A DNA stretch of 64,000 nucleotides, taken from Bradyrhizobium sp. CB3481 (GTDB lineage: Bacteria > Pseudomonadota > Alphaproteobacteria > Rhizobiales > Xanthobacteraceae). The notes below the pieces were generated by a model. That model worked only from the letters and a program-made list of their open reading frames with translations. It was not told where the DNA came from and ran no database searches. Where the stretch lies: NCBI RefSeq assembly GCF_029714305.1, contig NZ_CP121647.1, forward strand, positions 6,096,501 to 6,160,500. The letters run 5' to 3'. Below are positions 34,186-43,736 of this stretch, piece after piece. The translations under genes and the position numbers were made by a program. The number at the start of each line of letters is the position of its first letter. The first letter of the stretch is position 1.

Positions 34186-35049
34186 TCAGACCACCGTGCG
34201 GTGCCGCGCGATACAGGTCTGTAAAACCTCGTCCATCGGCCTTCCCCACCAGTCGTTGGAGAAGATTTCGATCTCGGAATAGCCGGCAAAGCCCTGCGCC
34301 TCGACCGCTGCTCGCGCGGATTTGATGTCGATGACGCCGTCGCCCATCATGCCGCGGTCGTTGAGGATGTCCTTTGTCGGCACCAGCCAGTCGCAGACGT
34401 GAAATGCGAGCAGGCGGTCTTTGCCGGCGCGCGCGATCTGCGGCATCAATTCCGGATCCCACCAGATGTGATACACGTCGAGCGCAACGCCGAGCGCGCC
34501 GGTGCGTTGCGGATCGAGCTGGTCGCAAATATCAAGCGCCTGCTTCGTCGTGTTCACGCAGGCACGGTCCGCGGCATAGGCCGGGTGCAGGGGCTCGATC
34601 GCGAGCGGCATGTTGGCCCCCCTCGCATATTCCAGCATCTCCGCGATGGCGTCATGCACCTGTGTACGCGCAGCCACGATATCCTTCGATGCCGTGCTTC
34701 CGGGGCGCGAATATTGCGGCAGGCCGCCGACAACGAGCACGATGCACGGCGCGCCCAGCGCCTTGGCTTCGTCCACGGCGCGGCGGTTGTCGTCGCGCGC
34801 CTCGATACGGTGCGCGGCGTCCGCCGTGAACATGCCGCCGCGGCAGTAGCCAGATAATTCGAGTCCTGCGTCGCGCACCGTCCGCACCGCGCGGTCAAGA
34901 CCGACGGCCGCAACCTGGTCGCGCCAGGGATCGATGGCGCGGATGCCATGTCGCGCGCAGGCTTCGATGATGGCGACGAGATCGCCCTGCTTGCGGACGG
35001 TTGCCGTATTCAGCGACAGCCAGCGATGATCCGAAGAGAAATCGCGCAT
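34186..35049 (-). CDS. Sugar phosphate isomerase/epimerase-like TIM barrel (AP-endonuclease 2 superfamily)
   Basis: 287 aa. Xylose-isomerase-like TIM barrel. Metal-ligand-type residues are seen in 'MPLAIEPLHP' (Glu near 153), 'VALDVYHIWW' (Asp/His near 190) and 'LLAFHVCDWL' (His near 216), with 'YSEIEIFSNDWW' (Glu near 257) closing the site. It catalyses isomerisation or epimerisation of a sugar, keto-sugar or inosose in characterised relatives. The ATG overlaps the stop of the DUF993 gene (TGATG), so the two are translationally coupled. Last gene of the probable transporter-enzyme operon that begins at 41774. Confidence 0.82.
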   Translation of the reverse strand: MRDFSSDHRWLSLNTATVRKQGDLVAIIEACARHGIRAIDPWRDQVAAVGLDRAVRTVRDAGLELSGYCRGGMFTADAAHRIEARDDNRRAVDEAKALGAPCIVLVVGGLPQYSRPGSTASKDIVAARTQVHDAIAEMLEYARGANMPLAIEPLHPAYAADRACVNTTKQALDICDQLDPQRTGALGVALDVYHIWWDPELMPQIARAGKDRLLAFHVCDWLVPTKDILNDRGMMGDGVIDIKSARAAVEAQGFAGYSEIEIFSNDWWGRPMDEVLQTCIARHRTVV

Positions 35050-36242
35050 CAAGGTTCGATGCCGCGCGTTGCCAGCACCGTCTTCATGCGCCGCGTCGCC
35101 AGTTCGGGGTTGGAGAGCAGCCCGGCCCTGTCGGCGAGGCGAAATAGTTCGGCGAGATGCAGCGTCGAGCGCGTGCTCTCCTGGCCGCCGACCATGGTGA
35201 AATGGTCCTGATGGCCGTTGAGGTACGCCATGAACACGATACCGGTCTTGTAGAACCGCGTCGGCGCACGGAAGATATGGCGCGACAGCGGCACCGTTGG
35301 GCCCAGCACATCGTGAAAGCCGGCCTCGTCGCCGGCGGCAAGCCGCGACAGCGCGTAGGATGCCGCCGGCGCGATGGCATCGAAGATGCCGAGCAGCGCG
35401 TGCGAAAAGCCTTGCGCGTCGCCGGCGATCAATTCGGCATAGTTGAAGTCGTCGCCGGTATACATCTTGACGTTCTCATCGAGGCGCCGGCGCATGTCGA
35501 TTTCGCGCTGCTTGTCGAGCAGCGAGACCTTTACGCCGTCCACCTTGGCCGCGTTGGCGTTGATGATGGCGACCGCCGTATCCATCGCCTTGTCGAGATC
35601 GGTCGTGCCCCAATAGCCCGCCAGCGCCGGGTCGAACATGTCGCCGAGCCAGTGGATGATCACGGGCTCGCGTACCTGCGACAGTACGCGATTATAGACT
35701 TTTGCGTAATCGTCGGCGCTGCGGCCGAGCTTGGCCAGCGCGCGCGAGGCCATCAGGATGATCCGGCCGCCGGCCTTCTCCACCGCCGCGATCTGTTCCT
35801 CATAGGCGCGGATCACGTCATCGATCGATTTGGCATCCTCCACTGCGAGGTGGTCGGTGCCGGCGCCGGAAAACACCAGCGCATTGCCCCTCGCCTTCGC
35901 GGCCCTCACCGAGCGCTGAATCAATTCCAGCGATGTCGGCCAATCCAGCCCCATGCCGCGCTGCGCGGTATCCATGGCTTCAGCGACGCCAAGGCCGAGG
36001 TCCCAGACATGCTCGCGGAACGCAATGGTGCGATCCCAATCGATCGCGGCGCTGAGCCAGGGATCGTTGTCGGCAAGCGGATCGGCGACCGTATGCGCAG
36101 CCGAGAAGGCGACGCGGTTCAGCGTGCCCTGAAGCTTCGCCGGAAACGTCTGCGACGCCGCCAGACGATAGGTCTCGATGGAACGTTCCGCGGTCGGCAG
36201 TTTCAGGAACAGCGATGACATCGGCAGGACAGGCTTGTTCAT
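35049..36242 (-). CDS. DUF993 family protein, probable class I aldolase-like (DHDPS fold)
   Basis: 397 aa. I recognise the family from the 'MSSLFLKLPTAERSIETYRL' start and 'TFPAKLQGTLNRVAFSAAHTVADP' region. The segment 'KVDGVKVSLLDK' around Lys238, followed by 'VKMYTGDDFNYAEL' (258-271) and 'GFSHALLGIFDAIAP', lines up by eye with the catalytic strand 'GIKE', 'LSGDD' and 'G.IS...N..P' of dihydrodipicolinate-synthase-type aldolases, so Lys238 may form a Schiff base. GGAGG lies 9 nt before the ATG. It probably cleaves or forms a C-C bond in a keto-acid or keto-sugar intermediate of this operon's pathway (inference). Confidence 0.8.
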   Translation of the reverse strand: MNKPVLPMSSLFLKLPTAERSIETYRLAASQTFPAKLQGTLNRVAFSAAHTVADPLADNDPWLSAAIDWDRTIAFREHVWDLGLGVAEAMDTAQRGMGLDWPTSLELIQRSVRAAKARGNALVFSGAGTDHLAVEDAKSIDDVIRAYEEQIAAVEKAGGRIILMASRALAKLGRSADDYAKVYNRVLSQVREPVIIHWLGDMFDPALAGYWGTTDLDKAMDTAVAIINANAAKVDGVKVSLLDKQREIDMRRRLDENVKMYTGDDFNYAELIAGDAQGFSHALLGIFDAIAPAASYALSRLAAGDEAGFHDVLGPTVPLSRHIFRAPTRFYKTGIVFMAYLNGHQDHFTMVGGQESTRSTLHLAELFRLADRAGLLSNPELATRRMKTVLATRGIEP

Positions 36243-36254
36243 GCTTGGGCCTCC

Positions 36255-37406
36255 TCACACCTTGATCGGGGCAACGTCGATCCAGCGCCGCTCGCGCCAA
36301 CTCTGCAGCGCGCATTCGGCAAGCTGCACGCCCTTGGCGCCTTCCAGCAGCGTGAACTTGTAGGGTGCGTCCTCGCAGACGTGGCGGATGAACATCTCCC
36401 ACTGCTCCTTGAAGCCGTTATCGTAGACGGCGTTGTCAGGAACCTTCTGCCAATCGGCATAGAAATCATGCGTGCGCTTTTCGTCCGGATTCCACACCGG
36501 CCGCGGCGTTGCCTGGCGTGCCTGGATCACGCAATCGGTCAGGCCGGCGACTGCCGAGCCGTGGGTGCCGTCGACCTGGAAGGTCACGAGGTCGTCGCGA
36601 TAGACCCGCGTCACCCAGCTCATGTTGATATGCGCGATCACGCCGCCCTTGAGGCGGAAGGTGGCGTAGGCGGAGTCATCGGCGGTCGCCGTGTATTTCT
36701 TGCCTTTCTCGTCGAAGCGCTCGGGGATATCTGTGGTGCCGAGGCAAGAGATGCTCTCGACCTCGCCGAAGAGATTGTCGAGCACGTAGCGCCAGTGGCA
36801 GACCATGTCGAGGATGATGCCGCCGCCGTCCTCGCTGCGGTAGTTCCACGACGGCCGCTGCGCCTCCTGCCAGCCGCCCTCGAACACCCAATAGCCGAAT
36901 TCGCCGCGCACCGAGAGCATGCGGCCGAAGAAGCCGGAATCGCGCAGGAAGGCGAGCTTCTTCAGGCCCGGCAGGAACAGCTTGTCCTGCACCGTGCCGT
37001 GCTTGACGCCTTTGGCGTTGGCGAGCTTGAGCACCGTGACCGCTTCCTCGAGATTGGTCGCGATCGGTTTCTCGCAATAGACGTGCTTGCCGGCCTCGAT
37101 CGCTTTCGTCAGCAGCGAAGGGCGCGCCTGCGTGGTGGCGGCGTCAAAGAAGATCGTGTCGTTCTTGTCGGCGAGCGCCTTGTCGAGGTCGGTTGACCAG
37201 CGCTCCACGTTGAAACGTTTTGCCAGCCGCTCCACCTTCTCGGCGTCGCGGCCGATCAGAATCGGATCGGGCAGCATGCGGTCGCCATTCGACAGCAGCA
37301 CGCCGCCCTGGTCGCGGATCGCGATGATGGAGCGGATCAAATGCTGGTTGAGCCCCATCCGGCCGGTCACGCCGTTCATGATCAGGCCGAGGCGTTTGGT
37401 CGTCAT
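36255..37406 (-). CDS. Gfo/Idh/MocA-family NAD(P)-dependent oxidoreductase
   Basis: 383 aa. Unusual N-terminus 'LGLIMNGVTGRMGLNQHLIRS' with a G-x-T-G-R-M-G dinucleotide motif, and the family 'CEKPIATN' (EKP near 118) lysine motif. The second domain has 'GGIILDMVCHWRYVLDNLFG', the typical 'D.G.H..D' substrate-site region. It oxidises or reduces a sugar, inositol or sugar-derived alcohol. ATGA overlap with the stop of the enolase-superfamily gene (37403-37406) shows coupling; DUF993 follows 12 nt downstream. Confidence 0.88.
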   Translation of the reverse strand: MTTKRLGLIMNGVTGRMGLNQHLIRSIIAIRDQGGVLLSNGDRMLPDPILIGRDAEKVERLAKRFNVERWSTDLDKALADKNDTIFFDAATTQARPSLLTKAIEAGKHVYCEKPIATNLEEAVTVLKLANAKGVKHGTVQDKLFLPGLKKLAFLRDSGFFGRMLSVRGEFGYWVFEGGWQEAQRPSWNYRSEDGGGIILDMVCHWRYVLDNLFGEVESISCLGTTDIPERFDEKGKKYTATADDSAYATFRLKGGVIAHINMSWVTRVYRDDLVTFQVDGTHGSAVAGLTDCVIQARQATPRPVWNPDEKRTHDFYADWQKVPDNAVYDNGFKEQWEMFIRHVCEDAPYKFTLLEGAKGVQLAECALQSWRERRWIDVAPIKV

Positions 37407-38806
37407 ACTGCTTTCTCCAGGGAGTTTTTGGCTATGGGCTCGGCAAGCGGCGACATCGCGGACCAGTCCGGATGTACTGAAGTGGCGAAGCCCGGTGTCG
37501 TCAGCGATCCCGTCAGGAGATCGCCGTCATGGACAGCGAGACGAACCTTGCCGCCGTCGCGGGTGTAGAGATCGGGATGACCTGCGAGAAACGCTTCCGC
37601 CTCGGCGGCCGGCGTGTCGCCAAATCCATCGACGTAATGGTGGCCGTTGCGCTCGGCATGGGTGACGCCGATCAGCGCGCCGAGCGCGAGATCCTGCTGC
37701 ACGGCTAGCCCCGCCTGACAGGTGAGATCCTCGCCCGTAACGAAGCATTTTTCGCCTGCCGCGCTCCATCGGGCGGCGCGGGTCGCGTTGATCACCGACT
37801 TGTAGATGCCCTTGCAGGATTTCGAGGAGATGCCGCGATAGCCGAGCGCCCGCGCGATCGGGAAGGCGTCGTAGGAATCATCCGCCTCGTCGACAATGAA
37901 ATCGCGCCGGGCCAGCGCACCAAGCGGTGACTGGCGCGTGATGTCGCGCGGCATCGGCTGTTCGATGTAAAGTAATTTTGACGCAATCGGCCGCAACGCG
38001 GCGTCGCGGTCGAGGCGGTCAATCAGCGCGCCGAGAACGGCGAGGTCGGAATATTGCTCGTTGGCATCAAGCGTGACGCGGTAATCATGGGACAGCGTGG
38101 CCAGCTCGTGGCCGATTCGAATCAGGCGGTCGGCATCGTGCGCGGGATCGCCGTTGAGCTTGAGCTTGAAATAGCGCGCGCCGGCGTTTTCACGTGCATC
38201 GGCGACACCGCCCTCGCCTTCGACCTCGTCGTCCATGCCGACCGTATGTCTGATGGCCACGCGCTCCAGCCGCTTGCGGCTGGCGAGGAGCTTGGTCACG
38301 TCACCATCGCCGATATCGCGTGACAGGCGCGCATCGATGCCGGCGATGTTGGCCGCCATGCCATCGAAGAAGTTGGCGCCGGTGCAGCGCAACAACGCAT
38401 CCAAAATCGCCTTGTCGATTTCGGCCGGCCCGTAAGCTGCCGCCAGCGGCGGGATGTCCTCGGCGGCGCAGGCCTCGATTTGCGCGCTGATACAAGCAGC
38501 ATGCAGACCGAACGCGGTCTCTAAGCCGGAATGTGCCAGATAGATATCCCGCGCGATCAGCAGCGAGCGGCGCAGCTCGGTCACCGTCTCCTGCGGCGAG
38601 AGATGCGGCCGCTTGTCGAACCATTTGGCGACCAGAAACTCGGCGCTTGCGCCCGTCGCCCTGCCTTTGCCTTCAACCTCGATCTCGACCCGCACAAAAG
38701 CCTGCGGCGTGCCGTCGATGACAACCGCGCCGAACCGGAACGGCCGGGCGAAGGCGACCTGCCGTTCAAAAAAGGAGATGTCCTTTATGGCTAGACGTGG
38801 CGGCAT
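37403..38806 (-). CDS. Enolase-superfamily (mandelate racemase-like) enzyme
   Basis: 467 aa, longer than the usual ~380. The barrel shows K214-x-K216 in YFKLKLNGD, then metal ligands Asp247 (LDANE), Glu282 (YIEQP) and Asp306 (VDEADDS), and basic residues Lys329/Lys332 in ISSKSCKG. These are the acid-sugar-dehydratase/racemase elements that abstract an alpha proton from a carboxylate substrate. It therefore likely dehydrates or epimerises an acid sugar or amino-acid-like carboxylate. It starts 12 nt after the ABC ATPase gene and overlaps the Gfo/Idh/MocA gene, so uptake and catabolism are one transcript. Confidence 0.85.
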   Translation of the reverse strand: MPPRLAIKDISFFERQVAFARPFRFGAVVIDGTPQAFVRVEIEVEGKGRATGASAEFLVAKWFDKRPHLSPQETVTELRRSLLIARDIYLAHSGLETAFGLHAACISAQIEACAAEDIPPLAAAYGPAEIDKAILDALLRCTGANFFDGMAANIAGIDARLSRDIGDGDVTKLLASRKRLERVAIRHTVGMDDEVEGEGGVADARENAGARYFKLKLNGDPAHDADRLIRIGHELATLSHDYRVTLDANEQYSDLAVLGALIDRLDRDAALRPIASKLLYIEQPMPRDITRQSPLGALARRDFIVDEADDSYDAFPIARALGYRGISSKSCKGIYKSVINATRAARWSAAGEKCFVTGEDLTCQAGLAVQQDLALGALIGVTHAERNGHHYVDGFGDTPAAEAEAFLAGHPDLYTRDGGKVRLAVHDGDLLTGSLTTPGFATSVHPDWSAMSPLAEPIAKNSLEKAV

Positions 38807-38818
38807 CGAAAGCCTGTC

Positions 38819-39667
38819 TCAATCCAGCGCGCTTTGGGTGAAGAAGTGCTTGCGAATCCGCTGCACCAGCTCGGTGAAGGCCGGATCGGCCATCGCATCG
38901 AGCGAGCGCGGACGCGGCAGCGGCACGTCATAGATTGCCGCGATCGCGCCGGGACGCTCGGTCATAACAAGCACGCGGTCCGCCAGAAACACCGCTTCCG
39001 GGATCGAATGCGTGATCAGGAGTACGGTCTTGCCGGTCTCGCGCTGGATGCGCATCAGTTCGACATTCATCTTCTCGCGCGTCATGGCATCGAGCGCGCC
39101 GAACGGCTCGTCCATCAGCATGATCTTGGGATCGTGCACCAGCGCGCGGCAGATCGAGGCGCGCTGCTGCATGCCGCCAGAGAGCTGCCAGGGCAGCTTC
39201 TTCTCAAACCCTTCGAGGCCGACCAGCTTGAGCAGCGACTTGGCGCGCGGCAGATATTCGTCGCGCGGCAGCTTCTTCATGTCGATCGGCAACATCACGT
39301 TGGAGAGGATGTTGCGCCAGGGCAGCAGCAGCGCATTCTGAAACACGATGCCGACATTGCCGTGCGGTTTCGTCACCGGCTCGCCATCAACGGTGATTTC
39401 GCCGGTCGAGGGCGCGAGCAACCCCGAGATCATCTTCAGCAGCGTGGATTTGCCGCAGCCGGACGGGCCGACCACGACGAAGAACTCGCCCTCGTTGATA
39501 TGGAAATCCAGCGGCCGCAGCGACGGCACGTCGCCGTCGCGCGACCGATAGGTTTTCGAGACGCCCGAAAGCGTAATCCCCGGCGCCGCGCTGCCGGCGC
39601 GATCCGATACCAGCCGCAGATGCGCGGCCGGTTGATTGATCTCGATTGGTTTGGTCGCCGGGTTCAT
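38819..39667 (-). CDS. ABC transporter ATP-binding protein (SsuB/TauB type)
   Basis: 282 aa. Walker A 'VGPSGCGKST' (near 68-77), Q-loop 'VGIVFQNALLLPWR', signature 'QLSGGMQQRASICRAL', Walker B 'IMLMDEPFGALD' and switch 'LLITHSIPEAVFLADRV'. It is typical of nitrate/taurine/sulfonate/NMT1 importers. It powers uptake with the permease at 40965 and binding protein at 39842. It is separated from the binding-protein gene by a palindromic repeat and lies 12 nt before the enolase-superfamily gene. Confidence 0.93.
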   Translation of the reverse strand: MNPATKPIEINQPAAHLRLVSDRAGSAAPGITLSGVSKTYRSRDGDVPSLRPLDFHINEGEFFVVVGPSGCGKSTLLKMISGLLAPSTGEITVDGEPVTKPHGNVGIVFQNALLLPWRNILSNVMLPIDMKKLPRDEYLPRAKSLLKLVGLEGFEKKLPWQLSGGMQQRASICRALVHDPKIMLMDEPFGALDAMTREKMNVELMRIQRETGKTVLLITHSIPEAVFLADRVLVMTERPGAIAAIYDVPLPRPRSLDAMADPAFTELVQRIRKHFFTQSALD

Positions 39668-39702
39668 TCAGATGAGTCCATTTGGAAAAGTCTCGCTCCG
39701 CC

Positions 39703-39820
39703 GTCGTCCCTGCGAACGCAGGGACCCATACGCCGTGCCCTTTCGTTTGGGCAGCCTGGCAGAGACCTTCTGCAACAACACAGGCCGGTGGTTATGGGTC
39801 CCCGCGTGCGCGGGGACGAC
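39703..39820. repeat. Palindromic repeat (GTCGTCCC type) between binding-protein and ATPase genes
   Basis: GTCGTCCCTGCGAACGCAGG at the left is mirrored by CCCCGCGTGCGCGGGGACGAC at the right, and GGGACCCATA by TATGGGTCCC. Same family as 41859, 52547, 59290 and 62067. Confidence 0.88.
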
Positions 39821-39841
39821 GATGGAATTTTTAACGCCTGC

Positions 39842-40840
39842 TCACGAACCGCCCTGCGGCAGGTAGTCGTTGGTATAAAACGCCTTCGGATTGTCCTTGG
39901 CCTTGGCGTCCAGCCCGCCATACTCGACCATCAAATTGACCGTGTCGGTCATGTTCTGGTCGGTCACCTGGAACGGCCGCTTGGCCTTGGTTTCAGCCGT
40001 GCGGTAAAGCGGAATCGTCAGCTCAAAGCCCTGCGTCAGCGTTTCGATCTTGCCGCCCTTCGGGTTGGCGTCGAGGATCGACTGCGCCGCGCCCTTCGGG
40101 TCCTTCTCGGCTGCTTCGACCGCCTTGGTCGTTGCCGACATGAAGCGCTTGACGAGGTCGGCATTGGCCTTGACGAAGTCGGTGTTGGCGACGATGCCCG
40201 AGCAGACCATGTTGATGCCGTAGTCGGCGAACTTGATCGCGTTGACGTCCTTGCCGGTCGCGTCCTTGATCTTCATCGACTGGTCCATGACGTAGCCGAG
40301 CAAGAGATCGGCCTGCCCGTTGATGACGGCGTTGAGCTTGGTCTGGCCGTCGCCCGCTACCGTCTGGAAATCGCTTTCCTTCAGGCCGGTCTTCTTCAGG
40401 AACAGCGGCCAGATCTGCGTCATCGAGTCGGCCGGCGTGATCGCCACCGTCTTGCCCTTGATGTCCTCGGGCTTCTTGATGTTCTTCTCGACAAAGCCCA
40501 TCGCCGACATCGGGCTGGTCTGCAGCAGCACGCCGGTGGCAACGATCGGCGCACCCTTGACCGCCGCGCGCATCATGGTGGGCACATCGACATAGCCGAA
40601 ATTGGCGGTCTTGGCCGCCACGGCCTGCGTGGTCGCTGCGGAGCCGCGGCCTTCCTGGATCTCGAGGTCAATGCCCTCGGCGGCGTAGATGCCCTTGGCC
40701 TTGCCGTAATAGAACGGCGCGTGCTCGCCATAAACGTACCAGTTCAGCATCAGCACCACCTTGTCGGCGGCCGATGCCGGAAGCACCGAAAGCGCGGTCC
40801 AGATCAGGGCGGCGGAGACCGCCGCTATCGTTCGTATCAT
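39842..40840 (-). CDS. NMT1/THI5-like ABC solute-binding protein
   Basis: 332 aa. Signal peptide to PASA|A (about 24). 'LMLNWYVYGEHAPFYYGKAKGIYAAEGIDLEI' region (30-61) is the NMT1/THI5 signature, and 'GRGSAATTQAVAAKTANFG' follows. The family binds pyrimidine precursors, sulfonates, riboflavin and other small ligands; the true ligand is open. It is flanked on both sides by palindromic repeats (40861-40936 and 39703-39820), which isolate this gene within its operon. Confidence 0.88.
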   Translation of the reverse strand: MIRTIAAVSAALIWTALSVLPASAADKVVLMLNWYVYGEHAPFYYGKAKGIYAAEGIDLEIQEGRGSAATTQAVAAKTANFGYVDVPTMMRAAVKGAPIVATGVLLQTSPMSAMGFVEKNIKKPEDIKGKTVAITPADSMTQIWPLFLKKTGLKESDFQTVAGDGQTKLNAVINGQADLLLGYVMDQSMKIKDATGKDVNAIKFADYGINMVCSGIVANTDFVKANADLVKRFMSATTKAVEAAEKDPKGAAQSILDANPKGGKIETLTQGFELTIPLYRTAETKAKRPFQVTDQNMTDTVNLMVEYGGLDAKAKDNPKAFYTNDYLPQGGS

Positions 40841-40860
40841 TGTCTTCCTCCCTTTGCTTC

Positions 40861-40936
40861 GTCATTGCGAGCGAAGCGAAGCAATCCATCTCTCAACTTG
40901 CGGCGCCATGGATTGCTTCGCTGCGCTCGCAATGAC
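40861..40936. repeat. Palindromic repeat (GTCATTGCGAGC type) between permease and binding-protein genes
   Basis: GTCATTGCGAGCGAAGCGAAG is followed by its mirror CTTCGCTGCGCTCGCAATGAC; GCAATCCAT pairs with ATGGATTGC. Directly upstream of the NMT1-like gene's start (40840). Confidence 0.9.
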
Positions 40937-40964
40937 GTCATCTGCTATCGTTCCAACGGTAATT

Positions 40965-41774
40965 TCACGAAGCGAAAATGATGTCGTCACGCTGGCTGAC
41001 GTGCCAGGGGATCACGAGGCGCTCGATGCGATCGACGACCCAGAACAGCACGACGCCGAGCAGCGCGAGGATCACCAGCGCGGCAAACATCGTCGGCAGG
41101 TCGAACGTTCCGATCGAGCGCTGCATCACATAGCCGATGCCGGAATTGGAGCCGACGAACTCGCCGACCACGGCGCCGACGACGGCGAGCGTGACCGATA
41201 CTTTCAGGCCGGAGAAGATCGCCGGCATAGCATGCGGCAGGTTGACGGCGCGGAACACCTGAAAGCGGCTGCCCTGCATCGCGCGCGCGAGATCGACCAT
41301 GTCAGGATCGACCGATTTGAAGCCCTGCACGGCGGAGACCACGACCGGGAAGAATCCCAGCAGGAATGCCGAGATTACTTTCGGAATGATGCCGAAGCCG
41401 AACCACACCACGAACAGCGGCGCGATCGCGATCTTCGGCACGGACTGCGAGAATACGAGCAGCGGATAGACATAGCTTTCCACCGTCTTCGATCCCGCAA
41501 TCAGCATGGCGACGGGGATGCCGAATACCGCCGACAGCAGGAAGCCGCAAATGGTGGCGTAGGTGGTCGGCCAGGACTGCCGCAGCAATTCCGGCCACTC
41601 CGTCCGCAAGACCGCCACGACATCGCCGGGCGCCGGGATCTGATAGGCCGGAATCTGGAACAGGCGGATGGTGACGTCCCACATCACCACGATGAAGATC
41701 AGGAACAGAAACGGCCGCACCCACGCCGCGTTCAGCGCTTTCGACAAGCCACTTTCAGCCTTCAACTCGGCCAC
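40965..41774 (-). CDS. ABC transporter permease (SsuC type)
   Basis: 269 aa, about six membrane helices. The EAA loop reads 'ARAMQGSRFQVFRAVNLPHAMPAIFSGLKVSVTLAVVGAVVGEF', typical of SsuC/TauC/ThiX permeases. GTG start at 41774 with GGGAG six nt before. First gene of the probable seven-gene operon; its promoter region holds an inverted repeat (41813-41843). It forms the channel for the ligand captured by the NMT1-like protein. Confidence 0.92.
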   Translation of the reverse strand: MAELKAESGLSKALNAAWVRPFLFLIFIVVMWDVTIRLFQIPAYQIPAPGDVVAVLRTEWPELLRQSWPTTYATICGFLLSAVFGIPVAMLIAGSKTVESYVYPLLVFSQSVPKIAIAPLFVVWFGFGIIPKVISAFLLGFFPVVVSAVQGFKSVDPDMVDLARAMQGSRFQVFRAVNLPHAMPAIFSGLKVSVTLAVVGAVVGEFVGSNSGIGYVMQRSIGTFDLPTMFAALVILALLGVVLFWVVDRIERLVIPWHVSQRDDIIFAS

Positions 41775-41812
41775 GTTGCGCTCCCTGGTATCGTCTTTTC
41801 GGAGGAGAAATT

Positions 41813-41843
41813 AACCCGTTGGATAAATACTGGCAAGCGGGTT
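41813..41843 (-). promoter_or_regulatory. Candidate promoter/operator of the transporter-DUF993 operon
   Basis: AACCCG (41813-41818) is inverted as CGGGTT (41838-41843), with TTG/CAA extending the arms inward. On the minus strand TTGCCA (41831-41836) and TTAATT (near 41809-41814) are spaced 16 nt apart like -35/-10 elements, 40 nt before the GTG. A TetR gene lies just upstream and could bind here. Confidence 0.4.
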
Positions 41844-41858
41844 TTCGTGCGGTATTTT

Positions 41859-41978
41859 GTCGTTCCTGCTCACACAGGAACCCATAACCACGAACGTTAA
41901 TTGTCAAAGCAAGATCAACGACTACCGCCTCAAGTCGAAAGGCCGCAGCGTATGGGTCCCGGCTTTCGCCGGGACGAC
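41859..41978. repeat. Palindromic repeat (GTCGTTCC/GTCGTCCC type)
   Basis: Left end GTCGTTCCTGCTCACACAGG and right end GGGTCCCGGCTTTCGCCGGG plus ACGAC are inverted relative to each other. The element ends 5 nt before the TetR stop codon and so lies between tetR and the operon promoter. Confidence 0.82.
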
Positions 41979-41982
41979 AGAA

Positions 41983-42729
41983 TCACACCGGCTGATGCTC
42001 GGGCGACCGTGCCCCCTGCGCGATGGCCTTGCCAAAATCCGCGGTCGATTTTCCGGTCAGCGCCGCCAGCACCAGCGCCACCATGTGGGCGAGGCGCTCG
42101 TCCCGCGCCTCCTTCTTCAGGAGGTCGCGGCCGAAGATCACGGAGAGCGTCGCGCTGTTGGACAGATAGAAGAAGCACAGCGCCGCGATCGAAATGTAGA
42201 GCTGAACCGGATCGACGGCGACACGGAAATCGCCGCTGACGACGCCGCGCGTCACCACGGTGCGGATCATCTCGACGAACGGGGAATGCATCGACTTGAC
42301 CTTGGTCGAGCGCTTCAGGTGGCGCGCCTTGGCCAGGTTTTCGGTGTTCAGCAGCGCCAGGAATTCGGGGTTACGGAGAAAATAATTCCATGTGAAGTCG
42401 ATCAGACGCTCGATCGCTTCCGGCGGATCGAGATGCTCGAGATCGAGCTCCCGCTCCTCGGAACGGATCTTCTCATAGGCGCCTTCCAGCACCGTGAGAT
42501 AGAGGTCCTCCTTGTTGCCGACGTGGTAGTACAGCATGCGCTTGTTGGCGCCGGCATTGGCCGCGATGCGATCGACCCGCGCGCCAGCCAGGCCGTGGGC
42601 GGCGAATTCCTGCTTGGCGGCCTCGAGAATCCGAAGTCGCATCCCCTCAGGGTCGCGTTGCCATTTCTGTCCGCGTTTTGCCTTTGCCAAATCAGTTGCC
42701 CGATGGATGCACGAAGCAAGCTGTAGCAT
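41983..42729 (-). CDS. TetR-family regulator
   Basis: 248 aa. HTH region 'ILEAAKQEFAAHGLAGARVDRIAANAGANKRMLYYHVGNKEDLYLTVL' (about 34-81), with 'LYYHVGNKEDLY' as the recognition signature; the C-terminal domain ('AALCFFYLSNSATLSVIFGRDLL') is of the TetR_C type found near aromatic and transport genes. The start is uncertain: ATG at 42729 has no clear ribosome-binding site, and a TTG nearer the HTH is possible. It probably controls the operon starting at 41774, from which it is separated by a palindromic repeat. Confidence 0.85.
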   Translation of the reverse strand: MLQLASCIHRATDLAKAKRGQKWQRDPEGMRLRILEAAKQEFAAHGLAGARVDRIAANAGANKRMLYYHVGNKEDLYLTVLEGAYEKIRSEERELDLEHLDPPEAIERLIDFTWNYFLRNPEFLALLNTENLAKARHLKRSTKVKSMHSPFVEMIRTVVTRGVVSGDFRVAVDPVQLYISIAALCFFYLSNSATLSVIFGRDLLKKEARDERLAHMVALVLAALTGKSTADFGKAIAQGARSPEHQPV

Positions 42730-42754: not shown

Positions 42755-42882
42755 ACCCTCCCCTGGAGGGGCGTGACGGGGTGGGGTGATCTCTCCACTC
42801 GGGCACTGTTGGATGACGAGAGACCGTCACCCCACCTCGGTTCGCATTTCATGCGAACCGATCCTCCCCCTCCAGGGGAGGA
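42755..42882. repeat. Palindromic repeat (CCTCCCCTGGAGGGG type) overlapping a gene's 3' end
   Basis: ACCCTCCCCTGGAGGGG at 42755 is mirrored by CCCCCTCCAGGGGAGG near 42865-42881; GGGGTGAT and ATGCGAACC segments are also paired internally. The VOC gene's stop codon (42849-42851) lies inside it. Confidence 0.85.
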
Positions 42883-43736
42883 TAAGCTCTTTCGCCCTTC
42901 CCCGCCGATGGCTGCACCAATAGTGTCGGCACGCCGCAGGTCCCCTTCCGCACCGTCATGACCCGCGTGCCCGGCTTGCGGCCGGTGCGGATTTCGGAGA
43001 CGTCGGCGCCGGCCTGGACCAGCCGCGCATGGACGGCGTCGATGTCCGCGATGCGCCAGCACAGGCCGTATAATTTATCCTGCGTCGTATCGGCCTGCTT
43101 GCCCGGCCGGTGCGTGATCTCGACGATGAGGTCGCCGCAGCGGAAGAACATCAGCCGGCCCCAATCGGGATGCGAGCGGTCGAGTGCCATGTCGAGGCCG
43201 AGCCGTGCGCCGTAGAGGGCAGCGGCGTGCTCGGGGTCCGAGGTCGAAACCACGACATGGTCCAATGCCGTGATCGCGGCGGCCGTAGTTGGCACCGACG
43301 GCGGCCGCTCCTTGTCACGCTCGAGGAAGAACAGGCGGACGCCGCGCGAGGCCTCCGTTGCGGTCCGCGTGCGCCTCCAAGACAGCGTCGCACCCGAGAT
43401 CGCATCGCGGCTCTCGACCTCCGCGATCGCCTCCGGCTGCAACGCCAGCCGCTCGAGCCGGCGATGCATTTTCGCGATGTCGCCGGTCCGGAAGCAGATG
43501 CTCGCCAGCCCCTCGCCCTGCGCATCGAGTACGGCGCGGATGCGGTCCGCATCCATGCCCTCCCCGTTCGGGGCCACCAATTCCAGCGTGGTGTTGTCAA
43601 GCGTGAACAGGACGCGGTCAGCGCCCCCGCCGCCATACTGCCAGGCCGGCGCGCGGGCAAACAGCGTCTGGTAGGCGGTGGATGCCGCGTTGATGTCGCC
43701 GGTGAGAATGACGACGTGGTCGAGGTCAGTGATCAC
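42849..43736 (-). CDS. VOC (glyoxalase/bleomycin-resistance/dioxygenase) superfamily protein, two domains
   Basis: 295 aa with two VOC modules: the first starts 'ITDLDHVVILTGD' (His near 7) with 'NTTLELVAPNGEG' (Glu near 53), the second 'ITALDHVVVSTSDPEHAAALYGARLGL' (about 155-180) with 'DLIVEITHRPGKQ' (Glu near 213). His and Glu residues provide a metal site. The reaction is unknown (isomerase, lyase or dioxygenase are possible). GTG start overlaps the dehydrogenase stop (GTGA at 43733-43736). The last ~10 residues (PPLEGEDRFA) are encoded by the palindromic repeat. Confidence 0.82.
   Translation of the reverse strand: MITDLDHVVILTGDINAASTAYQTLFARAPAWQYGGGGADRVLFTLDNTTLELVAPNGEGMDADRIRAVLDAQGEGLASICFRTGDIAKMHRRLERLALQPEAIAEVESRDAISGATLSWRRTRTATEASRGVRLFFLERDKERPPSVPTTAAAITALDHVVVSTSDPEHAAALYGARLGLDMALDRSHPDWGRLMFFRCGDLIVEITHRPGKQADTTQDKLYGLCWRIADIDAVHARLVQAGADVSEIRTGRKPGTRVMTVRKGTCGVPTLLVQPSAGKGERAYPPLEGEDRFA

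Follow-up and report, generated by a model that had tools for sequence, protein, structure and literature searches.

Two described catabolic systems come closest to the locus analysed here, a seven-gene operon lying behind a TetR-family gene in a 64,000-nucleotide (nt) window of the 8.0-Mb chromosome of Bradyrhizobium sp. CB3481 (contig NZ_CP121647.1, forward-strand positions 6096501-6160500; G000:C1 in our genome set). Glucarate/galactarate catabolism (GarD/GlucD, KdgD or GarL, GarR, GarK) is similar in combining an enolase-superfamily enzyme with an enzyme of dihydrodipicolinate synthase (DHDPS) or aldolase type, and a tartronate-semialdehyde-reductase-like gene and a glycerate 2-kinase gene are found in some relatives; the window differs in having an enolase of muconate-lactonizing enzyme (MLE) type, a DUF993 protein in place of a PF00701 protein, and additional Gfo/Idh/MocA and triosephosphate isomerase (TIM)-barrel enzymes. 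myo-Inositol (iol) and rhizopine (moc) catabolism employ a Gfo/Idh/MocA dehydrogenase and an AP_endonuc_2 TIM barrel, as does the window, but the window proteins fall below the IolG and IolO cut-offs and we know of no counterpart in those pathways of the enolase-like and DUF993 genes.

Individual proteins also have described relatives. Muconate-lactonizing enolases share the fold and the KxK/D/E/D/K pattern of the window protein, with listed chains of 340-390 amino acids (aa) compared with 467 aa. Relative to the DHDPS/N-acetylneuraminate lyase superfamily, DUF993 reads HWLGDMFDP, with an invariant H197, at what we take to be the position of the YNVP segment in DHDPS. Sinorhizobium meliloti SMc04130 and SMc04132 are the sources of the solved structures 3JU2 (TIM barrel) and 4DNH (DUF993), both deposited as uncharacterised or hypothetical proteins, and SMc04132, SMc04133 and SMc04135 are listed in a gene table in PMC12542648. 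Among open-licence papers no description of DUF993 (PF06187) was found, and the passage of an Arthrobacter drought paper that names a 'dihydrodipicolinate synthase family protein' draws no link to DUF993. The same literature yielded no assigned pathway for this gene set, in agreement with the initial annotation of the locus.

We read the locus, with a probability of about 0.5, as a TetR-controlled operon for the uptake and catabolism of one polyhydroxylated carboxylate, sugar-acid-like or cyclitol-acid-like. This substrate class is favoured because the operon encodes, besides an enzyme predicted to act alpha to a carboxylate, a dehydrogenase and an isomerase of sugar type and an enzyme with an aldolase fold, and because tripartite tricarboxylate transporters (TTT) replace its importer in relatives. 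All genes lie on the minus strand, in the transcription order TetR, permease, NMT1 binding protein, ATPase, enolase-like, Gfo/Idh/MocA, DUF993 and TIM barrel; the junctions from the ATPase gene onwards are 12 nt, a 4-nt overlap, 12 nt and a 1-nt overlap. The components, in window coordinates and in order of transcription, are as follows (ABC, ATP-binding cassette).

41983..42729, minus strand: TetR-family regulator (TetR_C_29, RutR-like), start codon uncertain (PF17938, E 9.5e-43; PF00440)
41811..41826, minus strand: predicted TetR operator, palindrome TTATCCAACGGGTTAA, upstream of the permease start
40965..41774, minus strand: ABC permease, GTG start, first of the seven genes (PF00528)
39842..40840, minus strand: NMT1/SsuA-like periplasmic binding protein (PF09084, E 1.7e-45)
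38819..39667, minus strand: ABC ATPase of taurine/nitrate/sulfonate type (PF00005; best NCBIfam matches are taurine and nitrate ATPases, below cut-off)
37403..38806, minus strand: enolase-superfamily MLE-type protein, 467 aa, no Pfam match (assigned by fold and residue pattern)
36255..37406, minus strand: Gfo/Idh/MocA dehydrogenase, 383 aa (PF01408/PF22725)
35049..36242, minus strand: DUF993 protein, 397 aa; DHDPS fold, predicted to be a class I (Schiff-base) aldolase or a dehydratase (PF06187)
34186..35049, minus strand: AP_endonuc_2/xylose-isomerase-like TIM barrel, 287 aa, predicted isomerase/epimerase, ATG start sharing 1 nt with the DUF993 stop codon (PF01261, E 4.6e-36)

These coordinates, the tight junctions and the repeat-holding gaps bear out the initial description of seven co-directional genes behind a TetR gene. 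On the question of separate transcripts, a consensus scan of the operon strand, which is weak evidence, returned no promoter-like sites and two weak terminator-like sites, fewer than the 6.7 expected in shuffled sequence.

DUF993 was present in 180 of 195 sampled Bradyrhizobium genomes, the genus of its nearest relatives, in 25 of 289 genomes drawn from the class and 36 of 398 drawn from the phylum, and was confirmed in at least 8000 database candidates (all 8000 that were scored). The binding protein of the window was found in 39 of 40 Bradyrhizobium genomes, the sole exception, G683, being also the single genome among them that lacks DUF993, and in all 34 genomes with both coordinates listed the two gene starts lie 4.4-5.1 kb apart on one contig. 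Gene order was compared across 147 mapped DUF993 loci, comprising 80 closest-relative loci (the best 80 of at least 589 confirmed stretches, and skewed to close relatives), 50 evenly drawn loci (hits outside the genus from the class and phylum draws, one per genome but two for G164, omitting two fragments of G380 and nine same-genus genomes) and 17 plasmid loci hand-picked from 147 matching records. Loci were mapped by tblastn searches from reference proteins plus a simple GC-frame gene caller; the comparison of order takes in labelled genes alone, and a gene was scored as present within a range of approximately 8.5 kb upstream to 6 kb downstream.

The intact order permease, binding protein, ATPase, enolase-like, Gfo, DUF993, TIM barrel was observed in 40 of the 147 loci (35 closest-relative, three evenly drawn and two plasmid), spanning Alpha- and Betaproteobacteria and including Tardiphaga, Microvirga, Chelatococcus, Ancylobacter, Azospirillum, Polaromonas, Variovorax and Pseudacidovorax. 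The idea that the operon is a peculiarity of Bradyrhizobium was thus rejected. Only ten gene clusters were common to 27 Bradyrhizobium-group loci (Tardiphaga and Microvirga included) and six betaproteobacterial loci, namely the seven operon genes, TetR, a TctC-like binding protein (two loci of the first group) and a presumed antisense open reading frame (one locus); because the alpha- and betaproteobacterial loci share little else, the seven-gene block stays together while its surroundings change. Together with the fixed spacing and co-presence in Bradyrhizobium, the intact order upholds the earlier proposal of one conserved unit, with transporter and enzyme genes linked in relatives. Within the counting range around DUF993, the 80 closest-relative loci held a Gfo gene in 78 cases, the TIM barrel in 74, TetR in 62 and the enolase-like gene in 57, with corresponding counts of 25, 30, 21 and 13 in the 50 evenly drawn loci. 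Given the other DUF993 cluster types described below, DUF993 seems to be a shared module of several pathways, of which the operon in the window is one stable version.

The importer belongs to the NMT1/Ssu type, having a PF09084 binding protein with matching permease and ATPase, and is neither SsuA nor TauA proper by NCBIfam cut-offs (63 of 163.5 bits for the SsuA family and 31 of 304 bits for taurine); the nearest solved chains of the binding protein are 4NMY and then THI5/THI13 and 3IX1, all remote. At the 78 closest-relative loci with an adjacent Gfo gene, the importer was a close NMT1 system in 37, TTT in 15 (the TTT families being confirmed on one locus) and a TctC-like binding protein alone in 11, where such 'Bug' matches may be unrelated neighbours; six loci had other importers and nine had none recognised. 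The enolase-like gene tracked these classes, occurring with 37 of 37 close NMT1 systems, 14 of 15 TTT systems, none of the 11 lone TctC-like proteins and three of the nine loci without a recognised importer. Further importers beside the enzyme core included major facilitator superfamily (MFS), CUT1 and CUT2 types by annotation or by eye, and tripartite ATP-independent periplasmic (TRAP)-like and branched-chain-type ABC systems by eye, the TRAP, branched-chain and CUT2 labels resting on inspection or record annotation. TTT importers were also seen in clusters among the plasmid loci.

The NMT1 importer is exchangeable, because the Gfo-DUF993-TIM core also occurs with TTT, MFS and CUT1 importers, and the core is much less so. 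The assumption that the importer defines the pathway was accordingly rejected, and the initial argument from the NMT1 importer to an aromatic, heterocyclic or unusual acid-sugar substrate needs correcting, since the importer is not the defining part; CUT2 systems too accompany the core. The TTT importers at the core favour a carboxylate over an aromatic or a heterocycle. Exchangeability would also suit the chance presence in the operon of an importer for some unrelated nutrient, such as a thiamine precursor, as would the loci at which none was recognised and the repeats around the binding-protein gene, which could uncouple expression. Such a coincidence is nevertheless highly improbable, given that the order is conserved across two classes, that a second, diverged NMT1 binding protein accompanies the core in nine of the 147 loci, and that the predicted operator precedes the importer genes.

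The enolase-like protein has the MLE-type fold, a capping domain and a modified TIM barrel, with no Pfam or NCBIfam match and no PDB sequence match up to E 1; the possibility that the enolase call was spurious for want of a Pfam hit was rejected by fold comparison. Its residues K214, K216, D247, E282, D306 and K329 show no variation in either of two sets, of 29 and 25 sequences, and lie at or beside the matching strand ends, in what we take to be the MLE subgroup pattern of a KxK that closes strand 2, metal-binding D/E/D residues on strands 3-5 and a lysine on strand 6. Enolase-superfamily chemistry acts alpha to a carboxylate, and the window protein would likewise be expected to abstract such a proton. 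Muconate and chloromuconate lactonizing enzymes tie with dipeptide epimerases and N-acylamino acid racemases as its top fold matches, which raises the alternative of a cycloisomerase role for the MLE-type protein in an operon that takes up and degrades an aromatic or heterocyclic acid; pyrimidine-precursor proteins among the remote solved relatives of the binding protein and the RutR-like TetR point the same way. Fold likeness at 13-21% identity does not give function, however, and a ring-cleaving dioxygenase query matched in only 3 of 86 loci (two Chelatococcus loci and L145; other ring-modifying enzymes were not searched for), so that an aromatic substrate appears quite unlikely.

The DUF993 protein has a DHDPS-type TIM-barrel fold at 12-18% identity to superfamily chains, but PF06187 is its only match and it falls outside PF00701, for which reason it is counted as a fold relative. 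Residue conservation was assessed on tblastn segments filtered by length and E value, from 146 of the 147 DUF993 loci, 118 TIM-barrel loci and 113 Gfo loci, plus the window. K238 of DUF993 is invariant (147/147) and falls within strand 233-239 of the model, whose numbering is one less; hhalign aligned it with the DapA GIK lysine at E 0.65 using only five DapA sequences, a second attempt aligned a different region, and phmmer against DHDPS chains gave E 0.055-0.096. The Gfo/Idh/MocA protein shows the Rossmann domain, the C-terminal domain and the EKP lysine of its family and is very close to solved chain 3OQB (808 bits); the EKP lysine K113, D200 and H204 are invariant in 114 of 114 sequences. 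The TIM barrel is an AP_endonuc_2 member close to solved chains 3JU2 (SMc04130) and 3QC0, and its predicted metal site, E152, D191, H217 and E259, presumably the metal-binding residues, is kept in 118-119 of 119 sequences. These folds and residues fit the earlier suggestion that the enzyme set could dehydrate or epimerise, oxidise, cleave and isomerise one carbon skeleton.

Similar enzymes could serve a cyclitol (inositol-like) pathway in which Gfo dehydrogenase and TIM-barrel isomerase/dehydratase act and the ring is opened by another route, and the best NCBIfam matches are indeed IolG for the Gfo protein (72 bits) and IolO for the TIM barrel (23 bits). Both scores are far below the curated cut-offs of 355 and 300 bits, so the Gfo protein is not assigned to IolG, and the TIM barrel is likewise far below each listed equivalog cut-off. 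An enolase-superfamily step requires a carboxylate, and IolD/IolB/IolC-like partners were not recognised by eye, in maps that were not searched for them specifically. A cyclitol route is consequently improbable, if slightly less so than an aromatic one.

For the favoured polyhydroxylated carboxylate we propose a tentative order of steps. The NMT1-type ABC system would import the acid, the MLE-type enzyme would take the proton alpha to the carboxylate with epimerisation or dehydration as the outcome, and the Gfo/Idh/MocA enzyme would oxidise a secondary alcohol. DUF993 may then form a Schiff base through K238 and make a retro-aldol cut (or a dehydration), after which the TIM barrel could isomerise a product, and a C3 product would pass through glycerate to 2-phosphoglycerate by way of a glycerate kinase encoded elsewhere.

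That the carbon of the pathway ends as glycerate is suggested by genes near DUF993 in other loci: a glycerate 2-kinase gene was present in 8 of 17 plasmid, 7 of 50 evenly drawn and 1 of 80 closest-relative loci, and a tartronate-semialdehyde-reductase-like gene, below its curated cut-off, in six closest-relative loci and in none of the 50 or the 17. These genes in some DUF993 loci, the TTT importers and the same set of folds would also suit a non-phosphorylative aldarate or aldonate route like that for glucarate/galactarate, with an enolase-superfamily dehydratase, a DHDPS-fold enzyme, a dehydrogenase and a C3 product leading to glycerate. The enolase-like residues are nonetheless of MLE type and not of the mandelate racemase (MR)/GlucD type, which we take to be the usual catalytic pattern of acid-sugar dehydratases, DUF993 is not in PF00701, and one cluster is adjoined by an annotated KdgD and mandelate-racemase pair that may already fill the role there. 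We regard this route as unlikely, though it is the strongest of the alternatives.

Several observations weigh against a dedicated carboxylate pathway ending in glycerate. Within the evenly drawn set the full seven genes occur in only 3 of 50 loci, the Gfo gene in half and the enolase-like gene in about a quarter (25/50 and 13/50); 9 of 78 loci have no recognised importer, and carbohydrate importers in some relatives would suit a neutral sugar. The sequence alignment of K238 with the DapA lysine is not significant. The glycerate-kinase and reductase genes do not lie beside the operon, and the single MOFRL kinase gene of the genome is far off, beside apparent branched-chain-type binding proteins (by eye). 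Most of the case for glycerate is drawn from other DUF993 types with coenzyme A (CoA) transferase, enoyl-CoA hydratase, and short-chain dehydrogenase/reductase (SDR) or another Gfo enzyme, and from Gfo-DUF993-TIM clusters without the enolase-like gene.

Two such cluster types were noted in their own right. In L167 (2179-12826, S. meliloti pSymA), L169 and L177, DUF993 is accompanied by genes for CoA transferase and enoyl-CoA hydratase, glycerate kinase, acyl-CoA dehydrogenase, an SDR, a TIM barrel and electron transfer flavoprotein. Divergent from DUF993 in another type, at L175, L176, L204-L207, L210 and L221-L223, are genes for LacI, Gfo (L222 showed none), CoA transferase, enoyl-CoA hydratase and aldehyde dehydrogenase.

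The TetR protein is not RutR itself (58 bits against the TIGR03613 cut-off of 368 bits), and would bind the palindrome TTATCCAACGGGTTAA at 41811-41826 upstream of the permease gene. A degenerate form, NTMACYNNNNRGTKAN, written after the sites had been seen, was matched exactly in 47 of 108 upstream regions, which carry different importers; the corresponding figures for random and shuffled segments were 16 of 2081 and 6 of 2160. Of the 108 regions, 61 had no exact match, 76 matched when one mismatch was allowed, the Bradyrhizobium sites being among those with one mismatch, and 32 had no match within one mismatch. The genome-wide scan with the strict form TTATCCNNNNGGTTAA is the more independent test, although related genomes are not independent of one another, and found 53 copies in 40 Bradyrhizobium genomes against five hits of a reversed-pattern control. 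Of these copies, 32 precede the binding-protein gene by 902-1027 nt, which places them before the permease gene, 20 lie directly upstream of one remote SBP_bac_8 gene and one is unplaced (G660:C4). Eight of the 40 genomes lack a strict site before the operon, among them G683, which has no operon, and G686, which is cut by a contig end.

In 19 of the 20 remote cases the SBP_bac_8 gene is followed by two MalF/MalG-like permease genes, the other ending at a contig edge; in CB3481 this importer lies at L254 4002-7357 (G000:C1:7208601) with the same operator upstream. The pattern predicts a regulon of two units, the operon and a remote sugar-type ABC importer. Caution is warranted in that G683 retains the remote site though it lacks DUF993; because a 50% identical TetR paralogue exists, present in both CB3481 and G683, the TetR of the window is not claimed as the binder of the remote site. 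A looser operator pattern gave no sites around the cluster of the paralogue itself.

That cluster lies approximately 97 kb from the operon (L316 6841-13155; G000:C1 about 6235840-6242155) and places genes for an NMT1 importer and NAD-epimerase-like, GNAT-like and DHDPS-like proteins beside the paralogous TetR gene, the importer being diverged from that of the window (binding protein 27%, permease 38% and ATPase 50% identical). Its DHDPS-like gene is present in 32 of 40 Bradyrhizobium genomes and, in other bacteria, shares a locus with the DUF993 core in 16 of the 147 mapped loci, 11 of them with the NAD-epimerase-like gene and nine with the second binding protein; because its genes join the core in these loci, the second cluster is linked to the same pathway. 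It is possible, at slightly less than even odds, that the whole constitutes a wholly undescribed pathway of Alpha- and Betaproteobacteria, in which both a class I aldolase family (DUF993) and a reaction family (the enolase-like protein) would be new, and which in Bradyrhizobium would be divided among three separated units: the operon, the second NMT1/NAD-epimerase/DHDPS-like cluster and the remote sugar-type ABC importer with the same operator.

Three repeat pairs occupy the intergenic gaps.

41854..41983, no strand: inverted-repeat pair in the TetR/permease gap, 33-nt arms, 73% complementary
40860..40937, no strand: repetitive extragenic palindromic (REP)-like palindrome in the permease/binding-protein gap, 30-nt arms, 97% complementary
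39697..39826, no strand: inverted-repeat pair in the binding-protein/ATPase gap, 34-nt arms, 85% complementary

The genome-wide copy count covers the permease/binding-protein repeat only, whose half-site has 125 copies (61 + 64, at most three mismatches) against none for a reversed control; as a genome-wide REP-like element it was rejected as a component of the system. Elsewhere around the operon, a glyoxalase-like (VOC) coding sequence lies directly upstream of TetR at 42849-43460, with a similar-looking cluster (by eye) in 17 mapped loci. In several betaproteobacterial loci (e.g. L122, L125, L127 and L131) a thiamine-pyrophosphate enzyme cluster, found in 14 loci, is divergent near TetR, and one of its members exceeds the PRK08199 cut-off.

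DUF993 is widespread in Bradyrhizobium, yet no assigned reaction was found for it in the open-licence literature. The swap with importers of carboxylate type, the second cluster, which joins the core elsewhere, and the operator of a small regulon narrow the substrate class and make it testable, and the identity of the substrate would give two enzyme families an assignment and name a nutrient on which soil and root bacteria draw.

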